Notes under the pieces: model-generated
Database searches by the model: none
Seen by the model: only the letters and a program-made list of their open reading frames with translations
What the model was told of the DNA's origin: nothing
In this document: one piece after another, positions 8,391 through 52,558 of the stretch
How the letters are laid out: every line of letters starts with the position of its first letter
Position numbering within the stretch: position 1 is the first letter of the stretch
Made by a program: the position numbers and the translations under genes
Assembly: GCF_001428665.1 (NCBI RefSeq)
Contig: NZ_LMIJ01000023.1
Coordinates: 166,727 to 230,726 of the forward strand
DNA from: Acidovorax sp. Root219
GTDB taxonomy: Bacteria; Pseudomonadota; Gammaproteobacteria; Burkholderiales; Burkholderiaceae_C
Direction of reading: 5' to 3'
Length of the DNA: 64,000 nucleotides

Positions 8391-8579
8391 GCGGGAGGAG
8401 CCGGGAGTTCGTGAGGGGTGCGCCGCAGGCGGGCAGGAAAGAGGCCCGACGCTTGGCGGGCTCTCCGACCGATTATGCGGGAAGCGGCGGCCTGCGGCAC
8501 AGTGCCAGCGCAATCCCTGCACCAGATTGGGGCTGTCCGGCCGGCACCCAGGCGCAAAGCGCCCCAGGGCACCGATGTA

Positions 8580-13446: not shown

Positions 13447-13471
13447 GCAGGGTCTCTCTTCATTCGTTCGG

Positions 13472-13645
13472 TCATTCCGCGCGGGGCGGGGTCACTGCCC
13501 CGGGGGGCGGCAGCTCAGGGCGGTAGGGCTGCACGCAGCGCAGCGGCCGGCGCGCGTGCCGCAGGCGGCGCAGCACCAGCCAGCAGGGCCAGGCCAGCAG
13601 CGCGCCCAGCACGGTGTAGAGCAGCAGCTCCATCAGGATCTTCAT
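13472..13645 (-). CDS. bcsF: Small membrane protein BcsF
   Basis: A 57-residue protein with one strong hydrophobic helix (residues 2-25, LMELLLYTVLGALLAWPC) followed by a very basic juxtamembrane stretch (RRLRHARR) and a proline-rich tail. This is the architecture of BcsF, the small inner-membrane protein that recruits BcsE to the synthase and works with BcsG. The ATG overlaps the bcsE stop by four bases (ATGA), and position between bcsE and bcsQ fits the bcsEF pair. The call rests on size, topology, overlap and context, since such short proteins diverge quickly. Confidence 0.82.
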   Translation of the reverse strand: MKILMELLLYTVLGALLAWPCWLVLRRLRHARRPLRCVQPYRPELPPPGAVTPPRAE

Positions 13646-15468: not shown

Positions 15469-15469
15469 C

Positions 15470-18400: not shown

Positions 18401-19378
18401 GCCCAGGTTGCCCAGGCTCTCGCCATCGCCGGGGCGCAGCGCGAGCACGGTTTGCAACTGCTCTTCGGCGCGTTCGGTGTTGCCCTGGTCCAGTGCCACG
18501 CGCGCGGCATTGCGCGCGATGTTGGCCGGGTCGCGGGCAGCGCGCTCCGCACGTTCCACCGCCTGCTGCATGGCGGCCAAGCGGTCGACCATGGCCTGGT
18601 CGGCCGGGTAGCGCTGCAGGAAGGCGCGCACGCGCGGCATGTTGGCGGCGGTGTTGGGCAGCCGGTCCACGGCACGGCGCCACAGGTCCTGCAGCTGCTG
18701 GGCATTCACGTCGGGTTGTTTGGCAAGCGCTTCGATCTCCTGCACCACGGTGCTGGGGTTCTCGCCCCCGTACATGCGCATTTCGAGCTGCGCCAGGCGG
18801 TAGCGCGACTCACCGGTTTCCTGGTAGAGCTTGCCCAACTGGCGCACGGATTCGCCGCCGCCCTTGGTGCCCGAGCCGCCCACGATCTGCAGGTACTCCA
18901 GCGCCAGGCCGCCGAGTTCGGGCGGGCCGCTGGGAAACAGTTCGCGCGCCACATCGGCGGCCTCGGCCTTGCGGCCGGCGCGCGCCATCAACCGCATCTG
19001 CGAGAGTTTTTCGCGGTCGGGGCCGTACACGCGCACCAGGGTTTCGAGCTCCTGCGTCACCTTGTGCCCTGGGTGGCGGGTGCGCAGCGTCTCCAGGATG
19101 CGCTTGGCCTCGTCGGTCTTCTTCTCGCGCAGCGCCAGGTCACCGAGGGCACCCAGGCCCTGGGGGGAGTAGGGGTCCACGGCCAGCAGCTTGTCGATCA
19201 GCTGGCGCGCCATGTCGGGGCGGTTCTTGGAGGCCCACAGGCGCGCACCGCTGAGCAGCTCGGCCTCGATGGCCGGCGGCGCACTGGCCAGCACGCCGTG
19301 GCTGGCGGGAAGGCAGGCGGCTGCCAGCAGGGTGAGCGAGGGCAGCCAGTGGCGGGGTCGGCGCGGCCGGCTGGGCAT
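15470..19378 (-). CDS. bcsC: Cellulose export protein BcsC (TPR scaffold plus outer-membrane beta-barrel)
   Basis: Carries the glucan through the periplasm and outer membrane. The 1302-residue protein has an N-terminal signal peptide (basic start, hydrophobic LPSLTLLAAACLPASHG). A long alpha-helical region of tetratricopeptide repeats follows to about residue 900, and then a C-terminal BcsC barrel domain with alternating strands ending in VQPYSSF, a terminal Phe typical of barrels. Start ATG 19378 gives a clean signal peptide. A GTG at 19387 overlapping the bcsZ stop (GTGA) is an alternative that would add three residues. Length is slightly above E. coli BcsC. Confidence 0.95.
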   Translation of the reverse strand: MPSRPRRPRHWLPSLTLLAAACLPASHGVLASAPPAIEAELLSGARLWASKNRPDMARQLIDKLLAVDPYSPQGLGALGDLALREKKTDEAKRILETLRTRHPGHKVTQELETLVRVYGPDREKLSQMRLMARAGRKAEAADVARELFPSGPPELGGLALEYLQIVGGSGTKGGGESVRQLGKLYQETGESRYRLAQLEMRMYGGENPSTVVQEIEALAKQPDVNAQQLQDLWRRAVDRLPNTAANMPRVRAFLQRYPADQAMVDRLAAMQQAVERAERAARDPANIARNAARVALDQGNTERAEEQLQTVLALRPGDGESLGNLGMIRLRQGQHGEAQDLFGQAFALTRQGKWKDLQATSRFWGFLRQADVALEKSELATAADLAGRALAMQPNNAEALTTLASIRDLQGDRTQAEALYQSALKAEANSSSALKGLAGLYARTGRSGEALVLLEKASASDAALGEKLVGTQADILVAQADEHMQAQRLSAAMRTLESAIVLTPGDAWLRHRLARLYLRLSLPREALSVMDEGIARTSTAAADRSAMHYARALIRSAVDNDLGALADLAQIPAAEQTDAMRALVQRSTVKSLVARAGASRDTAEAQALLDQAEQAAGNDAELLYAVANTWFRRTQPARGVAVFDRLAARSPGLPPEVQLDHAQLLNRALDDAGLAARLPALLQSPGWSEEQEARLIALYTAHRERLIEQQRQAGNLGEALRLARQPLQLPDTPTTAQQRTQTQARLLMAAGEYADVARLLAPLAKAQPDSLEIRMNLADALSRLGDARGATEQALWLQDHLPPTDAGQQLALLRIWQRAGRMDEARALSARLLQAFPQDSDVLLHAARLERANRNYAQALVFFRSALTLETRGAASAPTEPAPGESAVAEPPLVLQQSYALSLPVDQAVVAKIQGEIDSIEARRQVWIEAAHTGLRKNSTDGISSLRGWERPLVAFMPRGYDGHYFLHVDRVKLDAGELPADGSDFTDFGQIAALPPNSPLAYRRQRGSGTNLGFGFVGDDFQWDIGTTGVGFPVTNLVGGIARTGDLGRYGYKLEGFRRPITGSLLSYAGARDPITGQVWGGVVATGASGRLSTDFGPYSSSVSLSLAALTGKNVESNTRAQLRLAVDRDVWKNSHSVVNMGVTFSAWHYGKDLSEYSFGHGGYYSPRSYASVALPIEWSGRKGAFTWLARGAISVSRSSSADTDYFPQNALLQSLARARLAESGSVPVYTGSSGSGFGRSFRGVLEYQVSKNLALGAQLELDRSAYYAPTNLMVYGRYRFDPVLAPLENRPRPVQPYSSF

Positions 19379-19383
19379 GGGGG

Positions 19384-20535
19384 TCACGGCTTCCACCGCG
19401 CGATGAGCTGGCCCGCCGCCGTGAAGCGGTACTGGCCATCGAATGCGCCCTGGCCGAAGAGGGCCAGCACCTGCTCGTAGTAGGCCGTAGGCCGCAGGGG
19501 CCGGGCCTCCAGGCGCATGCGCTGCGATTGCAGGGCCTTGTCGTCCCCTGCGGCGCGCAGAAAGGGCAGCATCGCGGCCGAGAAGCCCGAGGGCGCGGGG
19601 CCCGAGGCCTGCGCGCTCAGGATGTCGATGGATTCGGGCGGATAACCCTGGTCGCGCACGTAGCGGGCCATGGGCGCCAGGGTGTCGAGCAGCGCCCGGC
19701 GGCCCGGTGCGTCGGCATGCATCATGCCGGCCCACAGGTAGACGCGGATGGCGTTGTAGGTGCCCTGGCCCTTCTCCTTGCCCTCGGTGTCAACGAGGAA
19801 GCCCTGCTTGGCGTCGTACACCGTCCAGTCGGGCGTGAAACCCTTGGGCGAGGAGCCGCGAATGACCTTGAGCGAGCTGTCCACCATCAGCTTCCACTGC
19901 GGGTCGGCGTCACCCGCCGCCAGCCAGTGCATCAGGTGCATGGGCATGTAGCTCGGGTTCAGGCGCCAGCGGCCGTTGGGCTGCACGAAGCCTTTGGGTG
20001 CGGGCAGCAGGGTGGGGCCCAGGCCCGGGATGTCGGCGGTTTCTTCGCGCAGCACGCGCGCCGCCAGCAGGGCCGACAGGGCCCGGTAGCTGCGCTCGTT
20101 CCACAGGCGCCCGGCTTCGCCCAGGGCGTAGGCGATCCACAGGTCGGCGTCGGAGGCGGCGTTGGCGTCGATCACGCCCCAGGTGCCGTCGGGCCGCTTG
20201 CCCCACAGCCATGCAGGCAGGCGCGCCGTCATGTCGCCGGCGCACAGGTTGTTCTCGGTCCAGCGCAGCAGCTTGTCGAACATGGGGCGGTCGTTGGCCA
20301 CCAGCGCGAAGAACAGTGCATAGCCCTGGCCTTCGGAGTAGGTCTGGCCGCCACCGTCATCGTCGGAGACCACGCGGCCGCCTTCGTTGATGAACTGGGC
20401 CTTGAAGGCATCCCAGGCGGGCCAGGTCGGGCGGCCGGCGCCCGCCTGCTGGGCCCGGGCTGCCGGTAGGCAGGACAGAAGCGCGGCACCGGCACCGGCC
20501 TGCAGCGCTGTGCGGCGTCGAAGGAAATCAGTCAT
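19384..20535 (-). CDS. bcsZ: Periplasmic cellulase BcsZ (GH8 endo-1,4-beta-glucanase)
   Basis: Trims or corrects nascent cellulose in the periplasm. The 383-residue protein has a signal peptide with RRRTALQ before a hydrophobic stretch, so Tat export is possible although the motif is imperfect. GH8 signatures include the general acid E68 in TYSEGQGYAL and the Asp cluster in VIDANAASDADLW (about 123-133). The gene begins within the last eight bases of bcsB and ends 5 nt before bcsC, which implies coupled translation. Confidence 0.95.
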   Translation of the reverse strand: MTDFLRRRTALQAGAGAALLSCLPAARAQQAGAGRPTWPAWDAFKAQFINEGGRVVSDDDGGGQTYSEGQGYALFFALVANDRPMFDKLLRWTENNLCAGDMTARLPAWLWGKRPDGTWGVIDANAASDADLWIAYALGEAGRLWNERSYRALSALLAARVLREETADIPGLGPTLLPAPKGFVQPNGRWRLNPSYMPMHLMHWLAAGDADPQWKLMVDSSLKVIRGSSPKGFTPDWTVYDAKQGFLVDTEGKEKGQGTYNAIRVYLWAGMMHADAPGRRALLDTLAPMARYVRDQGYPPESIDILSAQASGPAPSGFSAAMLPFLRAAGDDKALQSQRMRLEARPLRPTAYYEQVLALFGQGAFDGQYRFTAAGQLIARWKP

Positions 20536-40552: not shown

Positions 40553-40845
40553 CGCTCAGAACCTGTTCAAAGTCTTTTTGCAGCCGCGTTGGAGTGCAAT
40601 CGGGATGAGTGGATGCTTCGGATGCGCCGCATGGGCTCATGCCCATACAAGCAGCCGGGGCGCCAGGCACTTCAAGTTCATCGGCCGATTTCACTCCAAC
40701 CCTCCGGGCAAGTGCCTTGTCGGGCGGTCTGCGGCGTTGCGGCGCTTGCCAATAGCCGAGCTATTGGCTGCACCCCGCGCCTTGCATCCCATCCCGACAA
40801 GGCATTTGCGCGGCTCCAAAAAGACTTTGAACAGGTTCTCAGCGC
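40552..40845. repeat. MITE-like element with 29-bp terminal inverted repeats
   Basis: The ends (40552-40580 and 40817-40845) are inverted copies matching at 28 of 29 positions, centred on AGAACCTGTTCAAAGTC. Inside are a second inverted pair (TTGGAGTG(C/A)AATCGG near 40590 and 40690) and a perfect hairpin GCCAATAG-CCGAG-CTATTGGC (40748-40768). There is no coding capacity. The left end abuts the ompA-family stop codon, and the right end contains the stop codon of the DUF6985-like gene. Similar AGAACCTGTTCAAAG repeats are, from memory, dispersed in Comamonadaceae genomes. Confidence 0.72.
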
Positions 40846-41369
40846 AATGGGTGGTAGACCACATTCTCCAGCGCGGCATCGGCGTAGCTGTCGGCGTTGC
40901 TGAGGTGGCCATCGAACATGCCGACCTTGGTCACGCGCTCGCCATTTTTCAGCACGATCTGCAGGCCATGCTCCGGCTCCCAGTCGCAGCTGCATTCGAT
41001 CGACACGTAGATGCCCTGGTCGCCGTGAGGCCGGCGCGTCACGTAGAGCTCGTCGCCAAACTCGATGCAGTCCCACACAGCCTCCGGGCTGTCGATGGCA
41101 AGATAGTCTTCGTCCGAAGGATCTCGCTGTGAATTCACGTCCTCGCAGTACCTGAACAGCTCCTGCTGCACTGCCTCCAGGACGGAGACGTCCGCGGCCA
41201 GCAGCTTCCTGACGGCCGCGAGAAATTCCTCGGGCTTGTCATCGTCGTCGTAGCCTTCGAGGAAGATGGTGCATTCCTGGTTGCCGAGCATGGGTACTTC
41301 AATGGGCTCGCTGGCATAGCCGCCCACGTCTTCGTCCGGGGTGAATTCGCCGATTCCTGGAATGTTCAT
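40839..41369 (-). CDS. DUF6985-like acidic protein, function unknown
   Basis: Predicted cytoplasmic, strongly acidic protein of 176 residues beginning MNIPGIGEFTPDED, with a FLEGYDDDDKPEEF segment and an SIECSCDWEPEHGLQIVLKNG strand region. It resembles DUF6985 proteins by its opening motif, an identification from memory. A GTG at 41378 could add three residues; no ribosome-binding site supports either start. Base composition is lower in GC than its neighbours. The stop codon lies inside the terminal repeat of the adjacent element, which suggests the insertion shaped the gene end. Related acidic proteins sometimes act as toxin immunity proteins, but no toxin is nearby. Confidence 0.62.
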   Translation of the reverse strand: MNIPGIGEFTPDEDVGGYASEPIEVPMLGNQECTIFLEGYDDDDKPEEFLAAVRKLLAADVSVLEAVQQELFRYCEDVNSQRDPSDEDYLAIDSPEAVWDCIEFGDELYVTRRPHGDQGIYVSIECSCDWEPEHGLQIVLKNGERVTKVGMFDGHLSNADSYADAALENVVYHPLR

Positions 41370-41507: not shown

Positions 41508-42482
41508 TCAATCCACCTTGATGTTGCGTGCCTTCACCACGCGGCTGTAGATGTCCGCGTCGCGGCGCACCATGGCAGCCATCTCGGTGCGCGTGACGCC
41601 CAGGGGCTCGCTGTGCAGCTCCTTGATGCGGCGCGAGAGATCGGGGTCCTTGCTCGCCTCGACCAGCAGTGCGTTGAAGCGGGTGAGGATGGGCTGCGGC
41701 GTGGCCGCAGGCGCCCAGATGCCGTGCCAGGACATCATCGAGAAGCCGGGCATCACCTCCGACAGCGTGGGCACATCGGGCAGGGCGGGATGGCGTGTGG
41801 GGCCCGAGTAGGCGAGCGCCTGTACCTTGCCGCTGCTGATCAGCTGGTAGCCGGTGGCGATTGGCTCCATCAGCGTGTCCACCTGGCCGCCCATGAGGTC
41901 GGCGATGGGGCTGGCGCGGTAGGGCACGTGCAGCATGTCAATGCCGACCTCGTCCTTGAGCGACTCCACGATCAGCTGCGAGGGGCTGCCCGCGCCGTAC
42001 GAGGCGTGCGAGTAGACACCCGGCTTGGCCTTGGCGGCGGCCACCAGGTCCTTGACGGTCTTGGCCGGGAACTTGTTGGTGGCGATCAGCACCAGGCCCT
42101 GGCGCATAGTGGTGGCCACGGGCACCAGGTCCTTGTCGGGGTCAAACGGCAGCTTGCTGTAGATGAAGGGGTTGATCGTGAACGCCGTGGACAGGTTGTA
42201 CACGAAGGTGTAGCCGTCCGCAGGCGACTTGGCCACTGCGTCCGAAGCCAGGTTGCCGGCCGTGCCAGGCCGGTTGTCGATCACCACCGGCACGCCGAGC
42301 TTCTTGCCCGCGTAGTCTCCGTACATGCGGGCGAAGATGTCGGGCGGCGTGCCGGGCGCAAAGCCCACCACGATCTTGATGGGCTTGTTCGGCCATTCCG
42401 CCCCCTGGGCCAGGGCCTTGCCGGCCAGCAAGGTACCGGCGGCCAGCACCAGCATCGTCTTCATCACCATTGTTCTGCGCAT
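41508..42482 (-). CDS. Bug-family (TctC-like) tripartite tricarboxylate transporter binding protein
   Basis: Periplasmic solute-binding protein of 324 residues with a signal peptide ending at KALAQ. Family features are WPNKPIKIVVGFAPGTPPDIFAR, NRPGTAGN, an SPADGYT segment and SYGAGSPSQL. Bug proteins bind carboxylates such as aromatic acids, glutamate and citrate. ATG 42482 has AGGAGAC 6 nt upstream. It is the last gene of the catabolic operon and the second of two Bug paralogues in a row. No TctA/TctB permease is present here, so it would need a partner elsewhere or act as a sensor. Confidence 0.92.
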   Translation of the reverse strand: MRRTMVMKTMLVLAAGTLLAGKALAQGAEWPNKPIKIVVGFAPGTPPDIFARMYGDYAGKKLGVPVVIDNRPGTAGNLASDAVAKSPADGYTFVYNLSTAFTINPFIYSKLPFDPDKDLVPVATTMRQGLVLIATNKFPAKTVKDLVAAAKAKPGVYSHASYGAGSPSQLIVESLKDEVGIDMLHVPYRASPIADLMGGQVDTLMEPIATGYQLISSGKVQALAYSGPTRHPALPDVPTLSEVMPGFSMMSWHGIWAPAATPQPILTRFNALLVEASKDPDLSRRIKELHSEPLGVTRTEMAAMVRRDADIYSRVVKARNIKVD

Positions 42483-42692
42483 TCTTGTCTCCTGTTGCGG
42501 GTTCATGCCCGCTTGTGTGGTCTGTTCGCTTCGCTCGTCTGCAGCGCAACGCCGCCATGGCGTGCATCGCACCGTGTGGGTCTGTCCGTCAATCGATGGC
42601 ATCACTCCTTTCGTGCCGGGCATGGCTGCGCCAGAGCCGCCGACTCCGGTGGGCGGGCTGTGGGAGGGGCATGCGTGGCTTGTCGGTCGCTA

Positions 42693-43649
42693 TCAGTCCA
42701 CCTGGGCGCCGGAGCGTTTCACTGCTTCGCCCCACTTGGCGACCTCGGCCGTGCCGAAGGTGGCCATCTCCGCTGCGTTCATGGCCGCGGATTCAATGCC
42801 CTGCGCGGCGAGCTTCTCGCGCACCTCGGCCTGGGCCAGCACGGCCTGCGTGGCATCGCGCAAGGTGTCGCGCTGCGCGGCCGGCATCGAGGCGGGCGCA
42901 TACAGCATGAACCACGCGACCAGGTCGAAATCCGCCACGCCCTGCTCGGCCAGCGTGGGCACGTCGGGCGCTGCCGCACTGCGTTTGGCGCTCGACGCGC
43001 CCAGGGCGCGCAGCTTGCCCGCACGGATGTGCGGCAGCACGGCGGCCGGGTGGTAGAACATGAACTGCACGTTGCCGCCCATCAGCTCGGTGAGCGCCTG
43101 CGCGCCGTCGCGGTAGGGCACGTGCACGAAGTCTTTCCCCAGGCGGATGTTCAGCGTCTCGCCCGCCAGGTGGCCCGAGGTGCCGTTGCCCGCCGAGGCG
43201 AAGCTCACGGATTTGCCACTGGCCTGGCGCAGGTCGGCCACGCCCTTCCACGGCGCGCTGGCCGGCACCACGAGCAGGGTGGGTGTGGCGCCTGCAAAGC
43301 CCAGCGGCACGAAGTCGCGCAGCGGCTGGTAGGGCAGCTTCTTGTACAGCGTGGGGTTGATGGCATGTGTGCCCACGGTGCCCATTAGCAGGGTGTTGGC
43401 ATCGGCACCCGCGCGCGCCACCATCTCGCTGCCGATGGTGCCTCCCGCACCGGGTTTGTTCTCTACGATCACCGTCTGCCCGAGTTGGCGGCCCAGGGCC
43501 TCGGCCAGCACCCGGCCCACGATGTCGGTCGAGGTACCGGCGGCAAAGGGCACGACCAGCTTGAGGGGGCGGCCGGTGCCCTGCGCGCTGGCAGCGCTGG
43601 CCAGCAGCGCCAGTGCTGTGGCGGCGATGAGCTGGCGGCGCTGCGTCAT
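42693..43649 (-). CDS. Bug-family (TctC-like) periplasmic substrate-binding protein
   Basis: A 318-residue secreted protein with a signal peptide (RRQLIAATALALLASAASAQ) and Bug motifs LKLVVPFAAGTSTDIVGR, ENKPGAGGTIGSE, and SAGNGTSGHLAGE. Its ATG overlaps the stop of the citrate-synthase-like gene by four bases, so it belongs to the catabolic operon. It differs clearly from the downstream Bug protein, so the two probably bind different acids or arose from an old duplication. The ligand is likely the compound degraded by the operon. Confidence 0.92.
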   Translation of the reverse strand: MTQRRQLIAATALALLASAASAQGTGRPLKLVVPFAAGTSTDIVGRVLAEALGRQLGQTVIVENKPGAGGTIGSEMVARAGADANTLLMGTVGTHAINPTLYKKLPYQPLRDFVPLGFAGATPTLLVVPASAPWKGVADLRQASGKSVSFASAGNGTSGHLAGETLNIRLGKDFVHVPYRDGAQALTELMGGNVQFMFYHPAAVLPHIRAGKLRALGASSAKRSAAAPDVPTLAEQGVADFDLVAWFMLYAPASMPAAQRDTLRDATQAVLAQAEVREKLAAQGIESAAMNAAEMATFGTAEVAKWGEAVKRSGAQVD

Positions 43650-44452
43650 GCTGCTTCTCCAAAGCCATCGGGCAGGCTGCCCTCGTACTGCAGTTCGCGC
43701 GTGGCCTGGTAGGACAAGGCAAAGCCGCTCGGCGTCTCGGCCTCTTCGGCCAGGTGAGCTATGAGCCCCGCTGTGCGCGCCAGGATGGGCACGCCGCGCA
43801 GCGACGCCACCGGGAAGCCCACGCCCATCAGCACCGCCGGGATCGCGGCCGAGACGTTCAGCCGCAGCTCCTTGCCGACGATACCGGGGATCACCTTCTC
43901 CAGTGCCAGCGCGATCTGCACGTAGCGCAGGTCGGCGCCGGCTTCGGTGGCCACGGCGATGAGCCGGCCCACGCGCGGGTCCACCTCCTTGTGCAGCGGG
44001 TGGCCATAGCCCGGGATGGAACGGCGCGCGGCCTTGAGCTCGGTGACCACGGCCGTGGCCGCATCGTCGAGCGTGGCGCCGGCATCCACCCGCGCCGCCA
44101 CGTCGGCGAACATGCGGCCTGCGGTTTCCGATGCGCCGAGGATCACCGAGCCGCAGCCCAGGATGCCGGCGGCCACCGCACCCTGCAAGGCATCGGGCGC
44201 GGCGGCAAAGGTCATGCGGCTGGCTTGCACGCTGGGCACCAGGCCGTGCTCGGCGATCGCCACCAGGGTGGCGTTGAGCACCGCGCTGCAGGCCGCGTCG
44301 GGCCGGCGGCCGGTGAGCAGCAGGAAGAAGTAGTCGGCGAACGGGATGTGGCCGATCAGGTCCTGGCACAGGTCCTCGCCGCGCACGACGATGGTGTGCT
44401 CGTTGGAGGTGCAGATGGCGGTGCGCGGGACGGTGGATTTTCCGATTTTCAT
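43646..44452 (-). CDS. Short citrate-synthase-like protein (citryl-CoA lyase type)
   Basis: A 268-residue member of the citrate synthase fold, lacking about a third of a full citrate synthase, as in citryl-CoA lyase-type proteins. Conserved parts are the active-site His region SIPGYGHPLHKEVDPR and NVSAAIPAVLMGVGFP, plus GCGSVILGASETAG near the middle. Such enzymes can cleave citryl-CoA or related hydroxyacyl-CoA esters to acetyl-CoA and an oxo acid. Placed beside a CoA-transferase and a ring-cleavage dioxygenase, it may perform the final cleavage of a CoA-activated ring-fission product. That role is inference. Confidence 0.82.
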   Translation of the reverse strand: MKIGKSTVPRTAICTSNEHTIVVRGEDLCQDLIGHIPFADYFFLLLTGRRPDAACSAVLNATLVAIAEHGLVPSVQASRMTFAAAPDALQGAVAAGILGCGSVILGASETAGRMFADVAARVDAGATLDDAATAVVTELKAARRSIPGYGHPLHKEVDPRVGRLIAVATEAGADLRYVQIALALEKVIPGIVGKELRLNVSAAIPAVLMGVGFPVASLRGVPILARTAGLIAHLAEEAETPSGFALSYQATRELQYEGSLPDGFGEAA

Positions 44453-44462
44453 GGAGCGGCTT

Positions 44463-45356
44463 TCAGGCGTTTTGCGGTTCGAGGCGGAAGTCGTAGTGCG
44501 CCGACCACCAGGGCGCGGCCTGTGCCGTGCCGTCCGGCGCCTGGCCGGCGGGGTGCTGCTCGAAGTCCACGATCAGGCTGGGGCGCACGCCGAACACCGC
44601 ATCCGACTCGATGTAGGGGCTGCCTGCCACGAAGAGGTGGGTGGTGACCGGGGCATGCCCAGTTGCGGAGACCATCATGTGGATGTGGCCGGGCCGGTTC
44701 GGGTGGCGGCCCATGCCGTCGAGCATGCGGCCCACGGGGCCGTCTACCGGCACGGGGTAGAAGCTCGGGCGGATGGACCAGAACCAGTAGCGGCCCTGGT
44801 CATCGGTGCGGACGCGTGCGCGCGCGGCCATGCCCGAGCCTTCCACCTGCATGTCGTACACGCCCTCGCCATCGCCCGACCAGATGTCGAGCAGCGCGCC
44901 CGCCAGCGGCTGGCCGTGCGTGTCGGTCACGCGGCCACTGTAGAAGGTGGGTTCGCCCTTGACGCCTGCGGACAGGTTGGCGCCCAGCGGCAGCTCGGGC
45001 GCGCCCTCCCAGTAGTAGGGGCCCTGCACCGTGGCCTCGGTGGCCTCGGTCATGCGCTGGCTGCCCTTGGCATGGGCGGTGGCACGCAGCTGGTCGAGCA
45101 TCACCACCATCATCGAGGCGCCCAGCGTGTCCGACAGCAGGATGAACTCCTGGCGTTGGCCGGTGCAGGCCTTGCCCACGGCGGTGAGGAACTCGATGCC
45201 CTGCATCCATTCCTCGGGCTTCAGGTCCACCTCGCGGATGAAGGCATGCAGGTGCGTGACCAGCGATTCCATGATCTGCGCGAAGCGCGGGTCGCTGGCG
45301 CCGTCCAGGCGCTGCAGCACGGCCTGGGTCAGCTCGTTTTCATTCGATGGGGTCAT
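44463..45356 (-). CDS. Intradiol ring-cleavage dioxygenase (hydroxyquinol/catechol 1,2-dioxygenase family)
   Basis: Non-haem Fe(III) enzyme that opens a catecholic ring between the hydroxyls. The 297-residue protein has the N-terminal helical dimerisation domain (about 1-100) and a catalytic beta-sandwich. All four iron ligands are visible: Y167 (DGEGVYDMQ), Y200 (SFYPVPVDGP), H224 and H226 (PGHIHM). The RTDDQGRYWFWSIRP and DAVFGVRPSL stretches are closest to hydroxyquinol 1,2-dioxygenases. AAGGAG lies 10 nt before the ATG. It is the second gene of the operon; no maleylacetate reductase, the usual companion, is seen. Confidence 0.9.
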   Translation of the reverse strand: MTPSNENELTQAVLQRLDGASDPRFAQIMESLVTHLHAFIREVDLKPEEWMQGIEFLTAVGKACTGQRQEFILLSDTLGASMMVVMLDQLRATAHAKGSQRMTEATEATVQGPYYWEGAPELPLGANLSAGVKGEPTFYSGRVTDTHGQPLAGALLDIWSGDGEGVYDMQVEGSGMAARARVRTDDQGRYWFWSIRPSFYPVPVDGPVGRMLDGMGRHPNRPGHIHMMVSATGHAPVTTHLFVAGSPYIESDAVFGVRPSLIVDFEQHPAGQAPDGTAQAAPWWSAHYDFRLEPQNA

Positions 45357-45398
45357 GGGTTCTTGTCTCCTTGTCTTTTCTTGGGGTCGGCTGGCGGG

Positions 45399-46550
45399 TC
45401 AGAGCGCTTGCCCGAGCCGCTGGCGTATGGGTCCGACGATGGCCGCGTTGTCGGCCCCCAGCATGGGCGGCGCGGTGACTTCCAATGCGCGCTCGCCGTC
45501 GAAGCTCACCGGCGAGCGGATGGTGCGCCACTGGCCGCCCTCGGGGTGGGGGGCGCTCACTTCCAGCTGCAGGTGGCGGGCCTGGGGGTCTTCCATGGCT
45601 TCTCGGGTGTCGTACATGGGTGCGTGCGGCACGTCCTGGGCTTCGAGCCGGGCACACCAGGTGGCGCGCGTCTGTTCGCGGAACAGGCCGCCGAGCAGCG
45701 TGATCAGGTCCTCCTGGTGGGTGATGCGCGCCTCGCGCGTCGCGAAGCGCGGGTCGTCGAACAGGCGCGGGCGCTCGATGGCGTTGGCCAGGCCCTGCCA
45801 GAATTTTTCGGGCGAGGACATGTGCAGCGCGATCCACAGGCCGTCGGCGCATTCGAGCACGTAGGACTGCGAGACGCTGGGCCGGCTGTAGGGGCCCATG
45901 ACCTCGTCTTCCGAGAAGTAGTGCGTGAACGCATCGAGATTGAAGTGGCACATGGCTTCGAGCATGGACACCTCGACCTTGCGGCCCACGCCCGTGCGGC
46001 CGCGCTCGACGATGGCACCCAGCACGCCGTAGGCGGCGTAGAAGCCGGTCATCGCATCGGCCAGCGCCGGGCCCACCACGCGGGGGTTGGCAGGGTTCAC
46101 CAGCAGCTTGAGGAAGGCGCTGGCGGCCTGGGCCACGGTGTCGTAGGCCGGGCGGCCTGCGGCCGGGCCGGTCTGGCCGAAGCCGCTGATCGCGCAGTAC
46201 ACCAGGCGCGGGTTCAGTCCGCGCAGCCGGGCCTCGCCCGCGCCCAGCCGGTCGGCAGCGCCGGGGCGAAAGTTCTGGATGTAGACGTCCGCATCCTTGA
46301 CCAGCTCGTCGAACACGGCTGCGTCCTCGGGCAGCTTGGGGTTGAGCGTGATGCTGCGCTTGTTGCGGTTGTAGGTCTGGAAGTGCGGGCTGTAGAGGCC
46401 GCCGCGGAACGCGCGGAACGGGTCGCCCGCGCCGGGCTGCTCGATCTTGATGACCTCGGCCCCCAGGTCGGCCAGGAACATGCCTGCCGCCGGGCCCGTG
46501 ATGAACGTGCCTTGCTCCAGCACCTTGATACCGCTGAGGACTTTGTGCAC
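45399..46550 (-). CDS. CaiB/BaiF family CoA-transferase
   Basis: Class III CoA-transferase of 383 residues that moves CoA between carboxylic acids. It opens VLSGIKVLEQGTFITGPAAGMFLADLGAEVIK, has YNRNKRSITLN and the active-site Asp in GPALADAMTGFYAAYG, and shows family-typical GRKVEVSMLEA. The start is taken as GTG 46550 because AAGGAGA lies 7 nt upstream and the family N-terminus begins there; reading stays open to an ATG at 46676, but that would overlap the regulator's operator. First gene of the operon and divergent from the LysR gene. Donor and acceptor acids unknown. Confidence 0.92.
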   Translation of the reverse strand: MHKVLSGIKVLEQGTFITGPAAGMFLADLGAEVIKIEQPGAGDPFRAFRGGLYSPHFQTYNRNKRSITLNPKLPEDAAVFDELVKDADVYIQNFRPGAADRLGAGEARLRGLNPRLVYCAISGFGQTGPAAGRPAYDTVAQAASAFLKLLVNPANPRVVGPALADAMTGFYAAYGVLGAIVERGRTGVGRKVEVSMLEAMCHFNLDAFTHYFSEDEVMGPYSRPSVSQSYVLECADGLWIALHMSSPEKFWQGLANAIERPRLFDDPRFATREARITHQEDLITLLGGLFREQTRATWCARLEAQDVPHAPMYDTREAMEDPQARHLQLEVSAPHPEGGQWRTIRSPVSFDGERALEVTAPPMLGADNAAIVGPIRQRLGQAL

Positions 46551-46657
46551 CTCGTTGTCTCCTTGTGGGTCTCTGGCCGCCTGGACTTCAGGGCGGTCTT
46601 GTGGGTTGCAGGCGACTGTAGGGGGCGTACCGACTTCCTGGAAATGATTGTTTTTCA

Positions 46658-46686
46658 TGGTTACCATCGATAGCATCGATCAACCA
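46658..46686. promoter_or_regulatory. Probable LysR operator in the divergent promoter region
   Basis: Nested dyad: outer arms TGGTT (46658-46662) and AACCA (46682-46686), inner arms ATCGAT-AGC-ATCGAT (46666-46680). It lies just upstream of the LysR ATG and within the 149-bp divergent intergenic region, the usual place for a LysR-type regulator to bind and repress itself while controlling the operon. Confidence 0.6.
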
Positions 46687-46699
46687 CCGGTGGCATGCC

Positions 46700-47620
46700 A
46701 TGGAACTGAGGCACCTGCGCTACTTCATCGCCCTGGCCGGCTCGCTCAACTTCACGCGTGCGGCCGAGCGGCTGCATGTGACGCAGTCCACGCTGTCGCA
46801 CCAGATCAAGCAGCTCGAGGAGGAGATCGGTGCGGCGCTGTTCGACCGCGCAGGCAAGCGCGTGGCGCTGACCGGTGCGGGCGACGAGTTTCTGCACTAC
46901 TGCACCAAGGCCCTGCACGAGATCGACCTGGGCCTGGGCGCCCTGCGCCAGAACGGCTCGGAGGTGGCGGGCGAGCTGCACATCGGCTCCACGCACACCT
47001 TCAACCTGGGCTTCATCCCGGGCTGCATCGCCGCCTTCCACGAGCGCCATTCGCGCGTGAAGGTGGTGGTCGAAGAACTGTCGGCAGACCACATCGCCGC
47101 GCGCCTGCAGCAGGGCACGCTGGACCTGGGCATCGCCTACCGGCCGGCAGTGCCGGGGCCGCTGCAGTTCGAGCCGCTCTACAACGAAGAGATGGTGCTG
47201 GTGGTGGCCAAGGGCCACCCGCTGGCGCGGCGCAAGCGTGTGCGCATGGTCGAGTTGCACCGCATGCCCATGGCCCTGTTGCCGGCCAGCTTTGCCACGC
47301 GGCAGATGCTGGACGAGTGCTTTCGCTCCTGCGGCGCCGAGCCGCAGGTGGTGGCCGAGATCAACACGCTTGCGCCGATGATGGACTTGGTGGGCAAGAC
47401 GCAACTGGCGTCCATCGTGGCGGCCAATGTGGTGTCTCCGCATTCGGGGTTGGTGGTGGTGCGGCTGGAAAGCCCCACGCCCGTGCGCACCCCGGGCATG
47501 CTGTGGTCGCCCGTGGCGCGCGAGTCGGCGCCCACCCGCGCGTTCTCGGCCATCGTGCGCAAGCTGGCGCTGCGCAGCAGCCTCAAGGACGTGGCCCAGC
47601 GCGCAGGCCGGGCGGCCTGA
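46700..47620 (+). CDS. LysR-family transcriptional regulator of the catabolic operon
   Basis: A 306-residue regulator with the N-terminal winged helix-turn-helix (RHLRYFIALAGSLNFTRAAERLHVTQSTLSHQIKQLE, residues 4-40) and a C-terminal periplasmic-binding-like effector domain of CynR/CbbR style (ELHIGSTHTFNLGFIPGCIAAF). It is transcribed away from the CoA-transferase operon, with a strong dyad between them, so it very probably activates that operon in response to its aromatic or carboxylic substrate. It converges with the DUF1513 gene 21 bp downstream. Confidence 0.93.
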   Translation: MELRHLRYFIALAGSLNFTRAAERLHVTQSTLSHQIKQLEEEIGAALFDRAGKRVALTGAGDEFLHYCTKALHEIDLGLGALRQNGSEVAGELHIGSTHTFNLGFIPGCIAAFHERHSRVKVVVEELSADHIAARLQQGTLDLGIAYRPAVPGPLQFEPLYNEEMVLVVAKGHPLARRKRVRMVELHRMPMALLPASFATRQMLDECFRSCGAEPQVVAEINTLAPMMDLVGKTQLASIVAANVVSPHSGLVVVRLESPTPVRTPGMLWSPVARESAPTRAFSAIVRKLALRSSLKDVAQRAGRAA

Positions 47621-47641: not shown

Positions 47642-48775
47642 TCAGGCCAACCTTACCCAGTGGTTGTCCATGCGCGCGCCCGTGAGCTCCTTGGCGTGCG
47701 CGTGCGTGAGTGGATGGGTGGAGCGCGCGTCTTCGAGCGAGTGTGAAACCCCGGCTGCCCACAGGCGGCCGCTGCCCACCGCCAGTGCGCAGACCTCTTC
47801 CAGCCCCACCAGGCCGCGCCACTGCCCATCGGGCGTGAAGGTGGCCACGCCCTGGCTGCGCGGGCAGCTCACGGCCCAGCCCTCGGCGGTGCTGGCGATG
47901 CTGCCGCCATAGCCGGCCATCGACTGGCCGGCGGGGCACAGGCGCAGCGCCTTGCCATCGAACAGCGCAAGGATGGGCGCGGCCGCCTTGTCCGCCGCCT
48001 CGGCGTGCTCGGCCTGCAGTGCGATGCCCAGCACCGTGCGCTCGGCGTTCCAGGCCAGGTGGCGCAGGCTCAGGCGCGCATCGGGCAGGCGCCACTGGCC
48101 CTGCAGTTCGCCGCTGTCGCCGTGCAGCCGCACGATGCTCGAATCCATGGTGTGCAGGTCGCGCTTGGTGCGCCCCGTTTCGGGCGCAGTGGGCACGCCG
48201 CCGTTGGCCACGATCAGCGCCGGTGGGCTACCCTTGGCGGCGGGTGCCCAGATCAGCTCGTGCGCATCGATGCCCTGCGTCGCCCACTCGTCCACGGTCT
48301 CAAGGCTGCGCGCATCGCGCCGTGCGACCAGGCTGGCGCCCGTGTCCACGTCGGTCTCGGTGGTGTAGAGGAAGCGGCCGTCAGCGCTGGCGATCACATG
48401 GCCGTTGAAGGAGCGCGTCGCATCCACCCAGTGCCATTGCGCCTTGCCAGCGGGCTGGCCCGGATGCCAGCGCACCAGCCAGTCACCGGGGCGGCGCGCG
48501 GTGGCAACCATGCTGCCATCGTGCAACTGGGCCAGGCCGTGGGCGCGCGTGGGCACTTCCAGTGCCTGGCGCACCTGCAGGGGCGAAGGCCCGCCGGCCT
48601 GCGCGGCCAGCACGCCGATGCGGTAGCTGCCATTGGCCTGCTGCCAGGCAGCCAGCAGTTGCATGGCTGCCGCAGCGGCGGGGGTTGCGTGGGTTGCCAG
48701 CGGCATCGCCGCCAGACCGCCCATCAGCCACAGGGCCTGGCGGCGGCTCAGCGTGGCGTTCACCTCAATCCCCAT
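47642..48775 (-). CDS. DUF1513 periplasmic protein of the imelysin cluster
   Basis: A 377-residue protein with a twin-arginine-like signal (SRRQALWLMGGLAAMPL). The mature part has repeated strand-turn units with WHPGQP, HVIASADGRFLYTTE and HELIWAP, consistent with the beta-propeller-like DUF1513 family. The start lies 11 nt inside the upstream imelysin gene, indicating coupled translation. It is the last of four iron-linked genes. Homologues recur beside imelysins and DUF1111 proteins in many Proteobacteria; the biochemical function is unknown, with iron or haem handling the favoured idea. Confidence 0.85.
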   Translation of the reverse strand: MGIEVNATLSRRQALWLMGGLAAMPLATHATPAAAAAMQLLAAWQQANGSYRIGVLAAQAGGPSPLQVRQALEVPTRAHGLAQLHDGSMVATARRPGDWLVRWHPGQPAGKAQWHWVDATRSFNGHVIASADGRFLYTTETDVDTGASLVARRDARSLETVDEWATQGIDAHELIWAPAAKGSPPALIVANGGVPTAPETGRTKRDLHTMDSSIVRLHGDSGELQGQWRLPDARLSLRHLAWNAERTVLGIALQAEHAEAADKAAAPILALFDGKALRLCPAGQSMAGYGGSIASTAEGWAVSCPRSQGVATFTPDGQWRGLVGLEEVCALAVGSGRLWAAGVSHSLEDARSTHPLTHAHAKELTGARMDNHWVRLA

Positions 48776-49862
48776 CCGCGTCCGAAAAGCCGATGCTCAC
48801 CTGCAGTGCAGGCGCGATCTCGGCCTCGGCCAGGCGCTTGAGCGCCGCCAGTTCCCTGGACGCCTGCAGCACCCGCTCGCCGCCGGCCTTGCCGGTGGCG
48901 CCGGACTGGTCGATGGCCTGCAGGGCCTTGTCCACGCGCTGCGTGGTGGCCAGCAACTGGTCGGCCAGCGGGTTCAGGCCGCGGCCGCGCAAATAGGTCT
49001 CCAGCGGCACCAGGGCCTCGCCGGGCGTGGGGGTCGGGGCGCTTTCGGGCAGCACGGCCAGGGTGCGCAGGGCGTTCCACTCGGCCTTCCAGGCGGCAGA
49101 AGCCTGGCCGCTGGCGGCGCGGGGGTACTCGGGCGGGCGCGTGCCTTGCGCGGCGCGCAGCGGCTTTTCCATGTGCGCCCAGCGCAGGCGCTCGATGCCG
49201 CCCACCCACTGGTTGATGAACTCGCCCATGGCCGCGGTGGAGCGCTCCTGTTCGTCCTCGGCTGCCCAGTCGGTGCCGGCTGCGGTGTCGAAGGCGCTGG
49301 CCACGGCCATGGCTTCGCGCTCGATGTCCAGGGCCACTTCCACCGCATAGCCGCAGGCCGGTGTGCCGGGCGCCACGGGTTGCGTCCACAGCAGCCATTC
49401 CAGCGCTGGCAGGCCCTTGGCGGGCGTGCCGATGCGCTCGAAGGCCTTGGCGCCCTGCGGCTGGGTCTTGATGGCCCGTTCGATCAGGGCCGGGCGCGTG
49501 GGGGCAAAGTCCATCTGTCGCTGTGTCCGGCGTGTGATCACCGGGCCCACGGCCACGGCGCCCAGCGTCTCCCAGGCCATCATGCTGCGCTGCCAGGCGT
49601 TGCGGGCGCCGGTGAGGGCTGCGGCCGATTGGCCTGCAGGCGCCTCGCACAGCGCCCGCACGGCAGGGGCCAGCGCCTGCGCGGCCGTGGCCAACTCCTG
49701 CGCGCGCGGCTTGCCCCAGTGGCCGTACAGGCTTTGCAGCGCGTGCGTGGTGTCGTAGAAGGGCACGGCGTTGAGTTTCCAGCCGGTCTGGGCCTGTGCC
49801 GGCAGCAGCAGTGCGCCCAGGGCCAGGGCGGCAGCTGCTGTGCGAAGGAATGGGTGTTTCAT
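48765..49862 (-). CDS. Imelysin-family periplasmic protein with degenerate GxHxxE motif
   Basis: A 365-residue secreted helical protein of the imelysin (IrpA/IcmP-like) family, signal peptide ending at PAQAQ. Family landmarks are KPRAQELATAAQ, RNAWQRSMMAWETLGA and LPALEWLLW. At the position of the family GxHxxE motif it reads GLPALE, so the metal-binding His is missing, unlike the partner imelysin in the same cluster. The ATG overlaps the DUF1111 gene stop by four bases. Probably envelope iron-related, but as a non-canonical family member its ligand may differ. Confidence 0.87.
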   Translation of the reverse strand: MKHPFLRTAAAALALGALLLPAQAQTGWKLNAVPFYDTTHALQSLYGHWGKPRAQELATAAQALAPAVRALCEAPAGQSAAALTGARNAWQRSMMAWETLGAVAVGPVITRRTQRQMDFAPTRPALIERAIKTQPQGAKAFERIGTPAKGLPALEWLLWTQPVAPGTPACGYAVEVALDIEREAMAVASAFDTAAGTDWAAEDEQERSTAAMGEFINQWVGGIERLRWAHMEKPLRAAQGTRPPEYPRAASGQASAAWKAEWNALRTLAVLPESAPTPTPGEALVPLETYLRGRGLNPLADQLLATTQRVDKALQAIDQSGATGKAGGERVLQASRELAALKRLAEAEIAPALQVSIGFSDADGD

Positions 49863-51325
49863 AGCGACTCCACGAACTTGACCAGCGCATCGCGCTCGGC
49901 CTTGTTCATCTTCAGTACCTTGTCCTTGGCGGCTTCGGCCTCGCCACCGTGCCACAGAACGGCCTCGAGCACGCCGCGGGCGCGACCGTCGTGCAGCAGC
50001 CGGGTATGGCCGTTCACGTCCTTGATCAGGCCCGTGCCCCACAGCGGCGGCGTCTTCCACTGCCGGCCATTGGCGGCGAAGTCGGGCCGGTTGTCGGCCA
50101 GGCGTTCACCCATGTCGTGCAGCAGCATGTCGGTGTAGGGCCAGATGCGCTGGCCCGACAGGGCCTTGCTCGTCAGGTGCGGGAAGGGGCCTTCCTTGGT
50201 GACGTAGCTCGGCCGGTGGCAGGTGGCGCACTGGGCATTGGCGAACAGCGCCTGGCCACGCACGACCTGCGCGTCCTTGGGGTTGCGGCGTGCGGGCGGT
50301 GCCAGCGTGGCCTGGTAGAACACCACTTCGTCGAAGGTCTTGTCGTCGATCTCCACGCCCGGCTGGCCCTGCGCCGCGGCGCTCTTGCCGCTCGGTGCGG
50401 CCAGGCAGTCCTTCTGAGTGGGAGTGCAGGTCTCGTTGGCAAAGTGCTTCGAGGTGATGCCCATGTCGCCCTGGAAGGCGCCACCGGTCTGGTGCGCGAT
50501 GGTCGCAACGTTGCCCTTCCAGCCGAAGCGGCCCAGCATCATCTGGCCCGAGGGGGCGTCCCACACGCGGTTGGGCACGCCCTTGATCGGGCCGTCTGCC
50601 GCTGCCTGGTCGGCCGCGTTGGCCAGGATGTCGGCCTCGGCAATGGCTTCGAGCAGGCCCACGCCGATGATCTGCGGCGCAATGCGCGGGCTCGCCATGA
50701 TCTGTGGGTGCATTGGGCCATAGCCCAGGTCGGCAAAGCCGTAGTGGGGATCGAGCAGTTCGTAGGGTGTGCCGTCGGCGAACTTTCCTTTGACGGTCTT
50801 GTAGCGCAGGGTCACGCGGCCCTCGGGCTTGACGCCCTGGACAGCGGCGTTGTTGAACTGGTCGCCGTACACCGGGTCGTGCTTCGGGCCGCCATGGGCA
50901 TCGGCGCCAGGGATGGACAGGCGTATCAGCAGGGCCACCGTCGGGTCCTTGGTTTCGCCCAGGCGGTTGAAGATGGCTGGCGGCTCACCCCGGCCGTCCT
51001 GAACGTGGCAGCCGCCGCACGAGCGCGCGATGAAGTGCGGGCCCAGGCCGTCGCGCGCCTTGGTGGAGGCCGGTGCCTCGACCCAGTTGCGGCGGAAGAA
51101 CGAATTGCCGATCACGAAGCGCGTGCGCTCAGCGTCATCGAGGTTGGCGGCCGGGAAGGAAAAGGCATTGCGGCCCGTGGCGTACACCGTGGTGTTGCCG
51201 CCGACCTTCTCGCCGAGTGGGTCGGCGGGGGTGTCGGCCATGAGGCCGCCCAGGGCCGCAAGGCCGATGCTGGCAATCGCCAGGCGCGTGGCGCGCCGGC
51301 GGTCAGGGGCTTGCAAAAGCGACAT
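49859..51325 (-). CDS. Di-haem cytochrome c oxidoreductase (DUF1111 family)
   Basis: A 488-residue exported cytochrome with two CxxCH haem motifs: CGGCH near residue 104 and CATCH near residue 370. Other features are NTTVYATGRNAFSFPAANL near the mature start, GPHFIARSCGGCHVQDGRGE, and a C-terminal LHDGRARGVLEAVLWHGGEA. DUF1111 proteins resemble MauG/cytochrome c peroxidases and are linked to imelysins in iron-acquisition clusters, perhaps handling iron redox state in the periplasm. It overlaps the downstream imelysin gene in ATGA fashion. An N-terminal hydrophobic segment acts as signal or anchor. Confidence 0.9.
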   Translation of the reverse strand: MSLLQAPDRRRATRLAIASIGLAALGGLMADTPADPLGEKVGGNTTVYATGRNAFSFPAANLDDAERTRFVIGNSFFRRNWVEAPASTKARDGLGPHFIARSCGGCHVQDGRGEPPAIFNRLGETKDPTVALLIRLSIPGADAHGGPKHDPVYGDQFNNAAVQGVKPEGRVTLRYKTVKGKFADGTPYELLDPHYGFADLGYGPMHPQIMASPRIAPQIIGVGLLEAIAEADILANAADQAAADGPIKGVPNRVWDAPSGQMMLGRFGWKGNVATIAHQTGGAFQGDMGITSKHFANETCTPTQKDCLAAPSGKSAAAQGQPGVEIDDKTFDEVVFYQATLAPPARRNPKDAQVVRGQALFANAQCATCHRPSYVTKEGPFPHLTSKALSGQRIWPYTDMLLHDMGERLADNRPDFAANGRQWKTPPLWGTGLIKDVNGHTRLLHDGRARGVLEAVLWHGGEAEAAKDKVLKMNKAERDALVKFVESL

Positions 51326-51355
51326 GGAACGAAAGGAAAGCGCAGGCGGGGAGCC

Positions 51356-52558
<1,203 letters not shown>

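Follow-up and report, generated by a model that had tools for sequence, protein, structure and literature searches.

An operon joining a hydroxyquinol-type intradiol dioxygenase, a class III CoA-transferase and a citrate-synthase-fold protein in Acidovorax: a probable undescribed variant of intradiol aromatic catabolism

The hydroxyquinol pathway, the described system closest to the one reported here, comprises hydroxyquinol 1,2-dioxygenase, maleylacetate reductase, 3-oxoadipate coenzyme A (CoA)-transferase and thiolase. Two further points of reference are the citryl-CoA lyases with the fold of citrate synthase and the itaconate-type CoA-transferase/lyase pathway, for which PMC12290011 places a TctC-type gene close to the Cupriavidus necator cluster; Cupriavidus metallidurans CH34, according to PMC2864759, does not encode the combined citryl-CoA synthetase and lyase. 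Here we describe a locus of Acidovorax sp. Root219, in a stretch of 64,000 nucleotides (contig NZ_LMIJ01000023.1, positions 166,727 to 230,726; hereafter the window), which encodes an intradiol ring-cleavage dioxygenase together with a class III CoA-transferase and a 268-aa citrate-synthase-fold protein resembling citryl-CoA lyase, called the lyase below after its family. The three genes represent one conserved unit that is probably co-regulated. The operon that contains them is likely to encode a variant of intradiol aromatic catabolism that has not been described before and in which the citrate-synthase-fold enzyme is unusual; among the papers listed by searches of an open-licence library, none describes such an operon.

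The operon is compact and runs on the minus strand from 46550 to 41508. It begins with the CaiB/BaiF-type CoA-transferase (45399..46550), whose GTG start at 46550 has AAGGAGA just 5' of it, and which matches PF02515 (E 1.5e-104) over the full length of the profile (1-366 of 366). After 42 nt follows the hydroxyquinol-1,2-dioxygenase-like enzyme (44463..45356; PF00775/PF04444) and, 10 nt further on, the lyase (43646..44452; PF00285 and NCBIfam NF004868). The last two genes, also on the minus strand, encode Bug/TctC periplasmic solute receptors: the first (42693..43649) starts within the lyase stop in a 4-nt ATGA overlap, while the second (41508..about 42470) has an open reading frame that remains open upstream to 42623, and its start was placed from codon usage. 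A sequence-only reading of this DNA had joined dioxygenase, CoA-transferase and lyase in one operon; all three are where it placed them, on the minus strand, and beyond these the unit takes in the two receptors and a divergent LysR-type regulator (46700..47620, plus strand). The host genome measures 6.8 Mb and is rated 100% complete, and the closest named relatives are Acidovorax records (L048-L052) with the same gene order and a lyase identity of 94-99%.

Co-occurrence of the genes, the analysis that the sequence-only reading had proposed, was evaluated in 299 genomes of the family. The lyase gene (E at most 1e-60) was found in 22 of them, and for all of these 22 loci but one (L047) the retrieved DNA also contains the dioxygenase. 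When the same 299 genomes were searched with the dioxygenase, 87 matched at E 1e-50, and 24 of these have the lyase-linked type, defined as 369 bits or more (the next match scores 307 bits) by a cut set after viewing the list. The lyase is present in 21 of the 24 genomes with the lyase-linked dioxygenase clade and, conversely, the dioxygenase in 21 of the 22 lyase genomes (Fisher p 4.7e-28, not corrected for shared ancestry). Chance linkage is ruled out by this co-occurrence and by the adjacency of the genes across genomes. To look beyond the family, 84,980 species genomes were scanned and 492 stretches encoding lyase relatives were obtained, so that the module is common; the best 80 were kept and, together with 15 additional distinct loci and that of the window, make up the 96 distinct loci compared below. 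Genes in these neighbourhoods were called by a home-made finder, which detected no lyase gene in two of the 96 (L047 and L107). Both dioxygenase and lyase were called in 72 of the 96 loci, on the same strand in 68, with a gap of at most 50 nt in 50 and of at most 200 nt in 58. Ten same-strand gaps exceed 200 nt: four are start-codon errors of the gene finder (L033, L036, L054, L118), two are distant pairs (L045, L046), and the remaining four hold the CoA-transferase in between (L091, L095, L122, L126). Judged by this linkage, the assignment of the three predicted steps to one route is well supported.

Architectures were scored in the 94 loci with a lyase gene called. The window type (A) consists of CoA-transferase, dioxygenase, lyase and one or more Bug genes, whereas in type B the order is dioxygenase, lyase and CoA-transferase, often with a Bug or FMN reductase gene, four ABC transporter genes and a MetE-like gene. 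Type C (L091, L095, L122, L126) combines lyase and CoA-transferase with a different dioxygenase lineage, TRAP-type genes and a nitroreductase; type D, found in Bordetella, Achromobacter and Cupriavidus records, has CoA-transferase, lyase and Bug with no dioxygenase; in type E (L076, L119), lyase and CoA-transferase are followed downstream by a LeuCD-type hydratase, whose genes are named 3-isopropylmalate dehydratase by curated models, each of the two genomes having a further LeuD-like gene elsewhere. The order of the genes and the kind of transporter (Bug, ABC or TRAP) differ between loci, but dioxygenase, lyase and CoA-transferase remain together.

Of the 22 loci in the first comparison, 18 have a LysR gene from the cluster to which the window regulator belongs. 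In the divergent promoter of the window, within a conserved block at about 46642-46681, we observed a putative LysR operator, ATCGATG-N2-ATCGATG-NTANCNATG (46656..46680, minus strand), whose pattern was derived from the alignment of 16 window-type loci. Allowing up to 2 mismatches, it has a single match in the 6.8-Mb genome, and a control pattern has 0. When 3 mismatches were allowed, in a scan with no chance control, 53 of the 96 loci had a match, among them ABC-type and two Halomonas-type loci, a few of the matches lying away from the boundary. The match is exact in 22 loci, mostly of the window type, the kind from which the pattern was taken. The distribution of this putative operator supports a LysR circuit acting on one operon that includes the dioxygenase.

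Compared with solved sequences, the dioxygenase matches hydroxyquinol 1,2-dioxygenase (1TMX) at E 2.5e-77 and the best catechol 1,2-dioxygenase at E 1.2e-36, and its top five matches are two hydroxyquinol 1,2-dioxygenases, one 6-chlorohydroxyquinol 1,2-dioxygenase, PnpC and one protein named by its intradiol domain only. Because it matches hydroxyquinol enzymes far better than catechol enzymes, a plain catechol/beta-ketoadipate reading was ruled out. The Tyr2His2 iron ligands Y167, Y200, H224 and H226, described as intact from the sequence alone, are in fact invariant in 21 aligned sequences, window included. Two motifs differ: the window enzyme has ATVQGPY and RPGHIHM, not the ATVFGPF and RPAHLHF of most reductase-linked enzymes compared. 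Lyase-linked dioxygenases have ATV[QEL]GP, WSGD and RPGH in common (WSSD in genomes G110 and G205), and reductase-linked hydroxyquinol-type dioxygenases ATVFGPF, W[QE]xD and RPAHxHF, with one such row (L088_2) reading ATVLGPFF. The position changed from Phe to Gln is one that we take, from the literature on 1TMX, to line the pocket, and the only low-confidence segment of the structure model (predicted local distance difference test, pLDDT, 79.6), at residues 99-111, ends at this changed motif. A tree of 88 rows was built by a quick method after removal of four rows that were damaged or incomplete (L127_2, L042_2 and the two L119 pieces); in it, the 69 lyase-linked rows are accounted for by 2 changes, and G110 and G205 fall among or beside them. 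This group is distinct both from the reductase-linked enzymes, which themselves cluster with low support, and from another, separate lineage that takes the dioxygenase place in the operons of four Halomonas/Saccharospirillum-type loci; the one tested member of that lineage has PnpC and hydroxyquinol dioxygenases as its best PDB matches. By these comparisons, the window dioxygenase is in a clade of its own near the hydroxyquinol 1,2-dioxygenases. We also observed that in L119 (Paraburkholderia; 7683-8865, minus strand) the intradiol dioxygenase is split across two frames, and is therefore a pseudogene or the result of a sequencing error.

The nearest solved relatives of the CoA-transferase are a chain named formyl-CoA transferase and a succinate-hydroxymethylglutarate CoA-transferase. 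The class III catalytic Asp (VGPALAD motif), equated with the Asp of formyl-CoA transferase by alignment, is present in all of the 90 CoA-transferases found in the 96 loci. The best evidence for a CoA activation before the lyase comes from L032/L111, one Aquabacterium genome present in two collections and thus a case seen once: this locus has no CoA-transferase, and in its place an AMP-binding (acyl-CoA) ligase adjoins the lyase. Together with the Asp kept in 90 of 90 CoA-transferases, this non-homologous replacement suggests that CoA activation precedes the lyase step.

The lyase belongs to NCBIfam NF004868 (PRK06224.1-5), named 'citryl-CoA lyase', with 337 bits against a cut-off of 193. Its AlphaFold model (pLDDT 86) has the large-domain fold of citrate synthase, of about 260 residues, and matches the citryl-CoA lyase 6HXP with Z 24.5 and a root-mean-square deviation of 2.4 over 232 residues at 33% identity. 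Both catalytic His of the latter are kept (H69 and H151).

Building on the gene families, residues, linkage, co-occurrence and operator conservation observed above, we tentatively read the operon as a single route for the catabolism of an aromatic compound of the hydroxyquinol type (1,2,4-trihydroxylated and possibly substituted), a reading that we consider plausible and place just short of an even chance. The dioxygenase would open the ring between vicinal hydroxyls to give a muconate-type acid (3-hydroxymuconate/maleylacetate in the case of hydroxyquinol itself), the class III CoA-transferase would transfer CoA to this acid, and the citrate-synthase-fold protein would cut the bond beta to the thioester, releasing acetyl-CoA and leaving a C4 acid. 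For beta-keto acids, maleylacetate among them, water (or CoA) would act as the nucleophile and the products would be acetyl-CoA and maleate or fumarate; maleylacetate reductase, 3-oxoadipate CoA-transferase and thiolase would all be bypassed, the Bug receptors would provide uptake and the LysR protein would control the operon. We infer the substrate, the order of the CoA-transfer and cleavage steps and the cleavage products, maleylacetate-type acids being the most likely substrate. The sequence-only reading had proposed ring opening, CoA activation of the acid and a retro-Claisen cleavage to acetyl-CoA plus an oxo acid. Its linkage and its CoA activation before the lyase are supported, whereas a citryl-CoA-lyase-type chemistry may not apply. 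If the ring-opening product is maleylacetate, whose CoA ester is a beta-keto acyl-CoA, cleavage would yield a C4 dicarboxylate (maleate or fumarate) and not an oxo acid. The LeuCD-type genes downstream in L076 and L119 could be expected if maleate-like acids arise, maleate hydratases being LeuCD-like.

The same genome holds a second unit on another contig (L154 6385-9673, G000:C30), which encodes in one run a dioxygenase, a Dabb-like protein, a maleylacetate reductase homologue and a Bug-like receptor. The dioxygenase of this unit is 49% identical to that of the window and matches 1TMX at E 3.1e-92, and the reductase homologue is a match at 70% identity. The window operon has no maleylacetate reductase, class I CoA-transferase or thiolase. 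Since the dioxygenase/reductase unit sits on another contig, the window operon is not the ordinary hydroxyquinol route of that genome, and we ruled out that it is a mere duplicate of the hydroxyquinol operon. On the other hand, the partners of the standard pathway, which the sequence-only reading took to be different, are missing from the window operon but not from every relative: maleylacetate reductase homologues occur in the retrieved stretch of 7 of the 96 loci (two were tested, with 3W5S and 3HL0 as best named matches), so that the module is not fully set apart from the hydroxyquinol pathway. The seven loci are not all independent, because L040 and L041 are near-identical. These homologues, which include those of the dioxygenase-less L106 and L075, and the 70%-identical reductase elsewhere in the window genome could point to a different sequence of events, in which a reductase encoded elsewhere first reduces maleylacetate, the CoA-transferase forms 3-oxoadipyl-CoA, and the lyase takes the place of thiolase to give acetyl-CoA and succinate or succinyl-CoA. 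However, the reductase of the window genome sits with its own dioxygenase, the retrieved stretch of 89 of the 96 loci has no reductase (some being cut by contig ends), and 3-oxoadipyl-CoA thiolases are widespread, so their replacement would need a reason; we regard a reductase acting first as distinctly unlikely.

Several observations weigh against the proposed route from a hydroxyquinol-type compound through one operon. The window operon encodes no monooxygenase for the supply of a trihydroxybenzene, and the genome-wide operator scan at up to 2 mismatches, searched for co-regulated peripheral genes, returned the window site only. Across the loci, the operator is found in 2 of the 21 without dioxygenase (at the boundary in L076, far away in L075). 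The dioxygenase is on the opposite strand in four loci and lies more than 3 kb from the lyase in L045 and L046, while three genomes (G110, G205 and G291) have the dioxygenase clade without the lyase, G291 being 58% complete and its dioxygenase match falling at a contig start. Moreover, the intradiol dioxygenase, scored at a profile score of at least 100 bits within the retrieved stretch, is present in 60 of the 80 retrieved loci and missing from 20. In the genomes of these 20, whose completeness is not stated, a search for intradiol dioxygenases at E 1e-20 gave no match in 9, and one or more elsewhere in the other 11. Finally, the lyase carries Ser201 (NVS) where 6HXP has the Asp of its NVD motif. 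With regard to G110 and G205 (L152 4277-12686 and L153 6110-13356), the dioxygenase is found among nitroreductase-, SnoaL- or Dabb-, and ABC-transporter-type genes, an assignment made partly by eye.

Relatives without linkage of the dioxygenase to the other two genes were what the sequence-only reading had named as evidence against itself; they amount to the 20 of 80 loci just mentioned, and the linkage otherwise held. The CoA-transferase is kept beside the lyase in 18 of the 20 (not in L085 and L094). The absence of the dioxygenase from these loci, and from nine of the genomes, indicates that the CoA-transferase/lyase pair can use an acid of other origin, and since this core stands alone in some loci, the module is better described as a pair for CoA activation and cleavage, to which ring cleavage is usually, but not always, joined. 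It might even be that the pair acts on a Bug-imported organic acid (citrate-, citramalate- or aconitate-like), the dioxygenase being merely co-regulated where the substrates co-occur, for example in plant litter. This would fit the dioxygenase-free loci, which mostly contain a Bug gene, and the nine genomes with no dioxygenase match, as well as a distant relative (L177, 51%) that also lies, by eye, between CaiB-like and Bug-like genes. By contrast, in most loci the dioxygenase is placed between or directly beside the other two genes, more than one dioxygenase lineage is associated with them, and the receptors are swapped for ABC or TRAP systems. In a lyase tree (99 rows, quick method), the 75 rows with dioxygenase and the 21 without, 96 labelled rows in all, need only 6 changes; 19 of the 21 dioxygenase-less rows fall in one group of 29 rows, with 9 dioxygenase-bearing ones, a pattern that does not distinguish gain from loss. 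On balance, we consider an imported acid unlikely as the substrate of the window operon.

As to the replaced Asp, the pair of His is invariant and Ser occupies the Asp position in all 96 loci; one of the two scan patterns for near-group loci included the Ser/NVS motif, and the Ser count, like the set on which the His count is based, is therefore partly selected. A less biased test is offered by 29 wider homologues, namely 28 loci found by searching 300 genomes of the order and the genome's own 34% paralogue (the rows come from protein searches, and some share a genus), which have 3 Ser, 24 Thr, 1 Ala, 1 Val and 0 Asp at this position; in the order-wide loci L177-L203, the catalytic Asp is missing from 27 of 27 (2 Ser, 23 Thr, 1 Ala, 1 Val). 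Of the genome's own citrate synthases, three were aligned: two show Asp here, and the remaining one is out of register. Among PDB titles are those of Asp-to-Ala mutants of ATP citrate lyase (ACLY D1026A) and of a Methanosaeta protein (D541A) with citryl-CoA; the profile match ends at residue 211 of the lyase and 551 of the Methanosaeta chain, and, if ungapped, position 201 faces 541. Asp1026 of human ACLY we take to be the equivalent of position 201. According to an excerpt of PMC10115795, ACLY D1026A traps citryl-CoA and the residue is called essential, its role being debated and an allosteric rather than a chemical one argued for; thus, in the light of that excerpt, loss of the Asp is no proof of lost chemistry. 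Nevertheless, in a lyase without the catalytic Asp, citryl-CoA-lyase-type chemistry cannot be assumed, and this analysis found no support for citryl-CoA as its substrate. For the window protein, 'citryl-CoA lyase' is a fold assignment and a name, the latter probably transferred by annotation: of the citryl-CoA-lyase-type protein first proposed, the family, fold, length and both His stand, and the catalytic Asp does not.

A citrate-synthase-fold protein that has lost this Asp could also be no C-C lyase at all, and might instead hydrolyse thioesters, sense CoA esters or catalyse a condensation. The replacement in 29 of 29 wider homologues and the essential character attributed to the ACLY residue, with its citryl-CoA-trapping Ala mutant (PMC10115795, excerpt), would agree with this, but the His positions are invariant (in the partly selected set of 96) and the role of the Asp is the debated one described above; we hold a non-lyase function to be highly improbable. 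A true retro-aldol-type cleavage to acetyl-CoA and a 2-oxo acid, as originally proposed, would require that the ring product be hydrated to a citrate-like tertiary alcohol, or that it derive from a carboxylated trihydroxybenzene. It is consistent with 6HXP being the closest fold, with the aconitase-superfamily LeuCD hydratases after the CoA-transferase in L076 and L119, and with dioxygenase motif changes that allow a substituted substrate; on the other hand, a hydratase cluster occurs in only 2 of the 94 operon runs and the Asp expected of a citryl-CoA lyase is missing, which makes this chemistry very unlikely in our view. Returning to the route for a hydroxyquinol-type compound, a bolder version of it would be a third lower branch, in which activation by a class III CoA-transferase is followed by an Asp-to-Ser citrate-synthase-fold C-C hydrolase/lyase that acts on a beta-keto acyl-CoA and forms acetyl-CoA and a C4 dicarboxylate with no reductase or thiolase, the Ser/Thr proteins of the order constituting a new C-C cleaving class in many catabolic operons; taken as a whole, we regard this as somewhat unlikely.

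Among the order-wide homologues, several flanks of L177-L203 show, by eye, acyl-CoA ligase-, CoA-transferase-, acyl-CoA dehydrogenase- and Bug receptor-like genes. The genome's own 34%-identical paralogue (L155 5706-10465, G000:C11) has NATG in place of NVS and lies, again by eye, in a run with a Bug, an acyl-CoA-ligase-like and two short-chain-dehydrogenase-like genes, possibly another acid-activation and lyase module. Other genes recur in the operon runs of the relatives. FMN_red, YciI, Dabb and nitroreductase genes, found in some of them, may fit quinone or hydroxyquinol handling; FMN reductases and YciI/Dabb proteins have a parallel in hydroxyquinone handling in TftG. A MetE/UROD-like protein (cluster c9; PF01717 in the one tested, L037) occurs in 19 ABC-version runs (L033, L036, L037, L038, L087, L092, L097, L102, L103, L104, L110, L111, L112, L113, L114, L116, L118, L120 and L121), an amidohydrolase gene in 6 loci, and a nitroreductase in 6 loci, the one tested (L095) being named malonic semialdehyde reductase. 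In the window itself, a DUF6985 protein (40839-41369) is encoded on the same strand just 3' of the operon, and a packed minus-strand run of DUF1513, imelysin, di-haem oxidoreductase and imelysin genes (47642-52558) shows no relation to it. Farther away (10151-19396) are bacterial cellulose synthase-like genes, with a PilZ-domain glycosyltransferase and a BcsC-like protein as the two open reading frames tested.

If the proposed reading is correct, the operon would provide an additional lower route for the degradation of hydroxyquinol-type aromatics, and proteins that are named, or can be folded, as citryl-CoA lyase and lack the catalytic Asp would carry the wrong name and might cleave C-C bonds by a new chemistry. 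With the hydroxyquinol pathway the operon shares the dioxygenase family, and the same genome has homologues of the first two enzymes of that pathway elsewhere; by contrast, the window dioxygenase forms its own clade with changed motifs, and a class III CoA-transferase and a citrate-synthase-fold protein stand in for the remaining partners. CitE-type lyases such as Ccl are TIM-barrel proteins, unlike the window protein with its citrate synthase fold. The itaconate-type pathway nonetheless offers a likeness in logic, as CoA is placed onto an acid and a lyase then yields acetyl-CoA and a smaller acid (excerpt of PMC12290011), whereas the window operon, by the Pfam assignment of its six proteins, has neither a hydratase nor a CitE-type lyase and adds a ring-cleavage dioxygenase. 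Finally, the Hydrogenobacter citryl-CoA lyase (6HXP) and the corresponding module of ATP citrate lyase resemble the window protein in fold, length and both catalytic His, but the latter has Ser for the conserved Asp and is encoded among partner genes that resemble those of aromatic catabolism.

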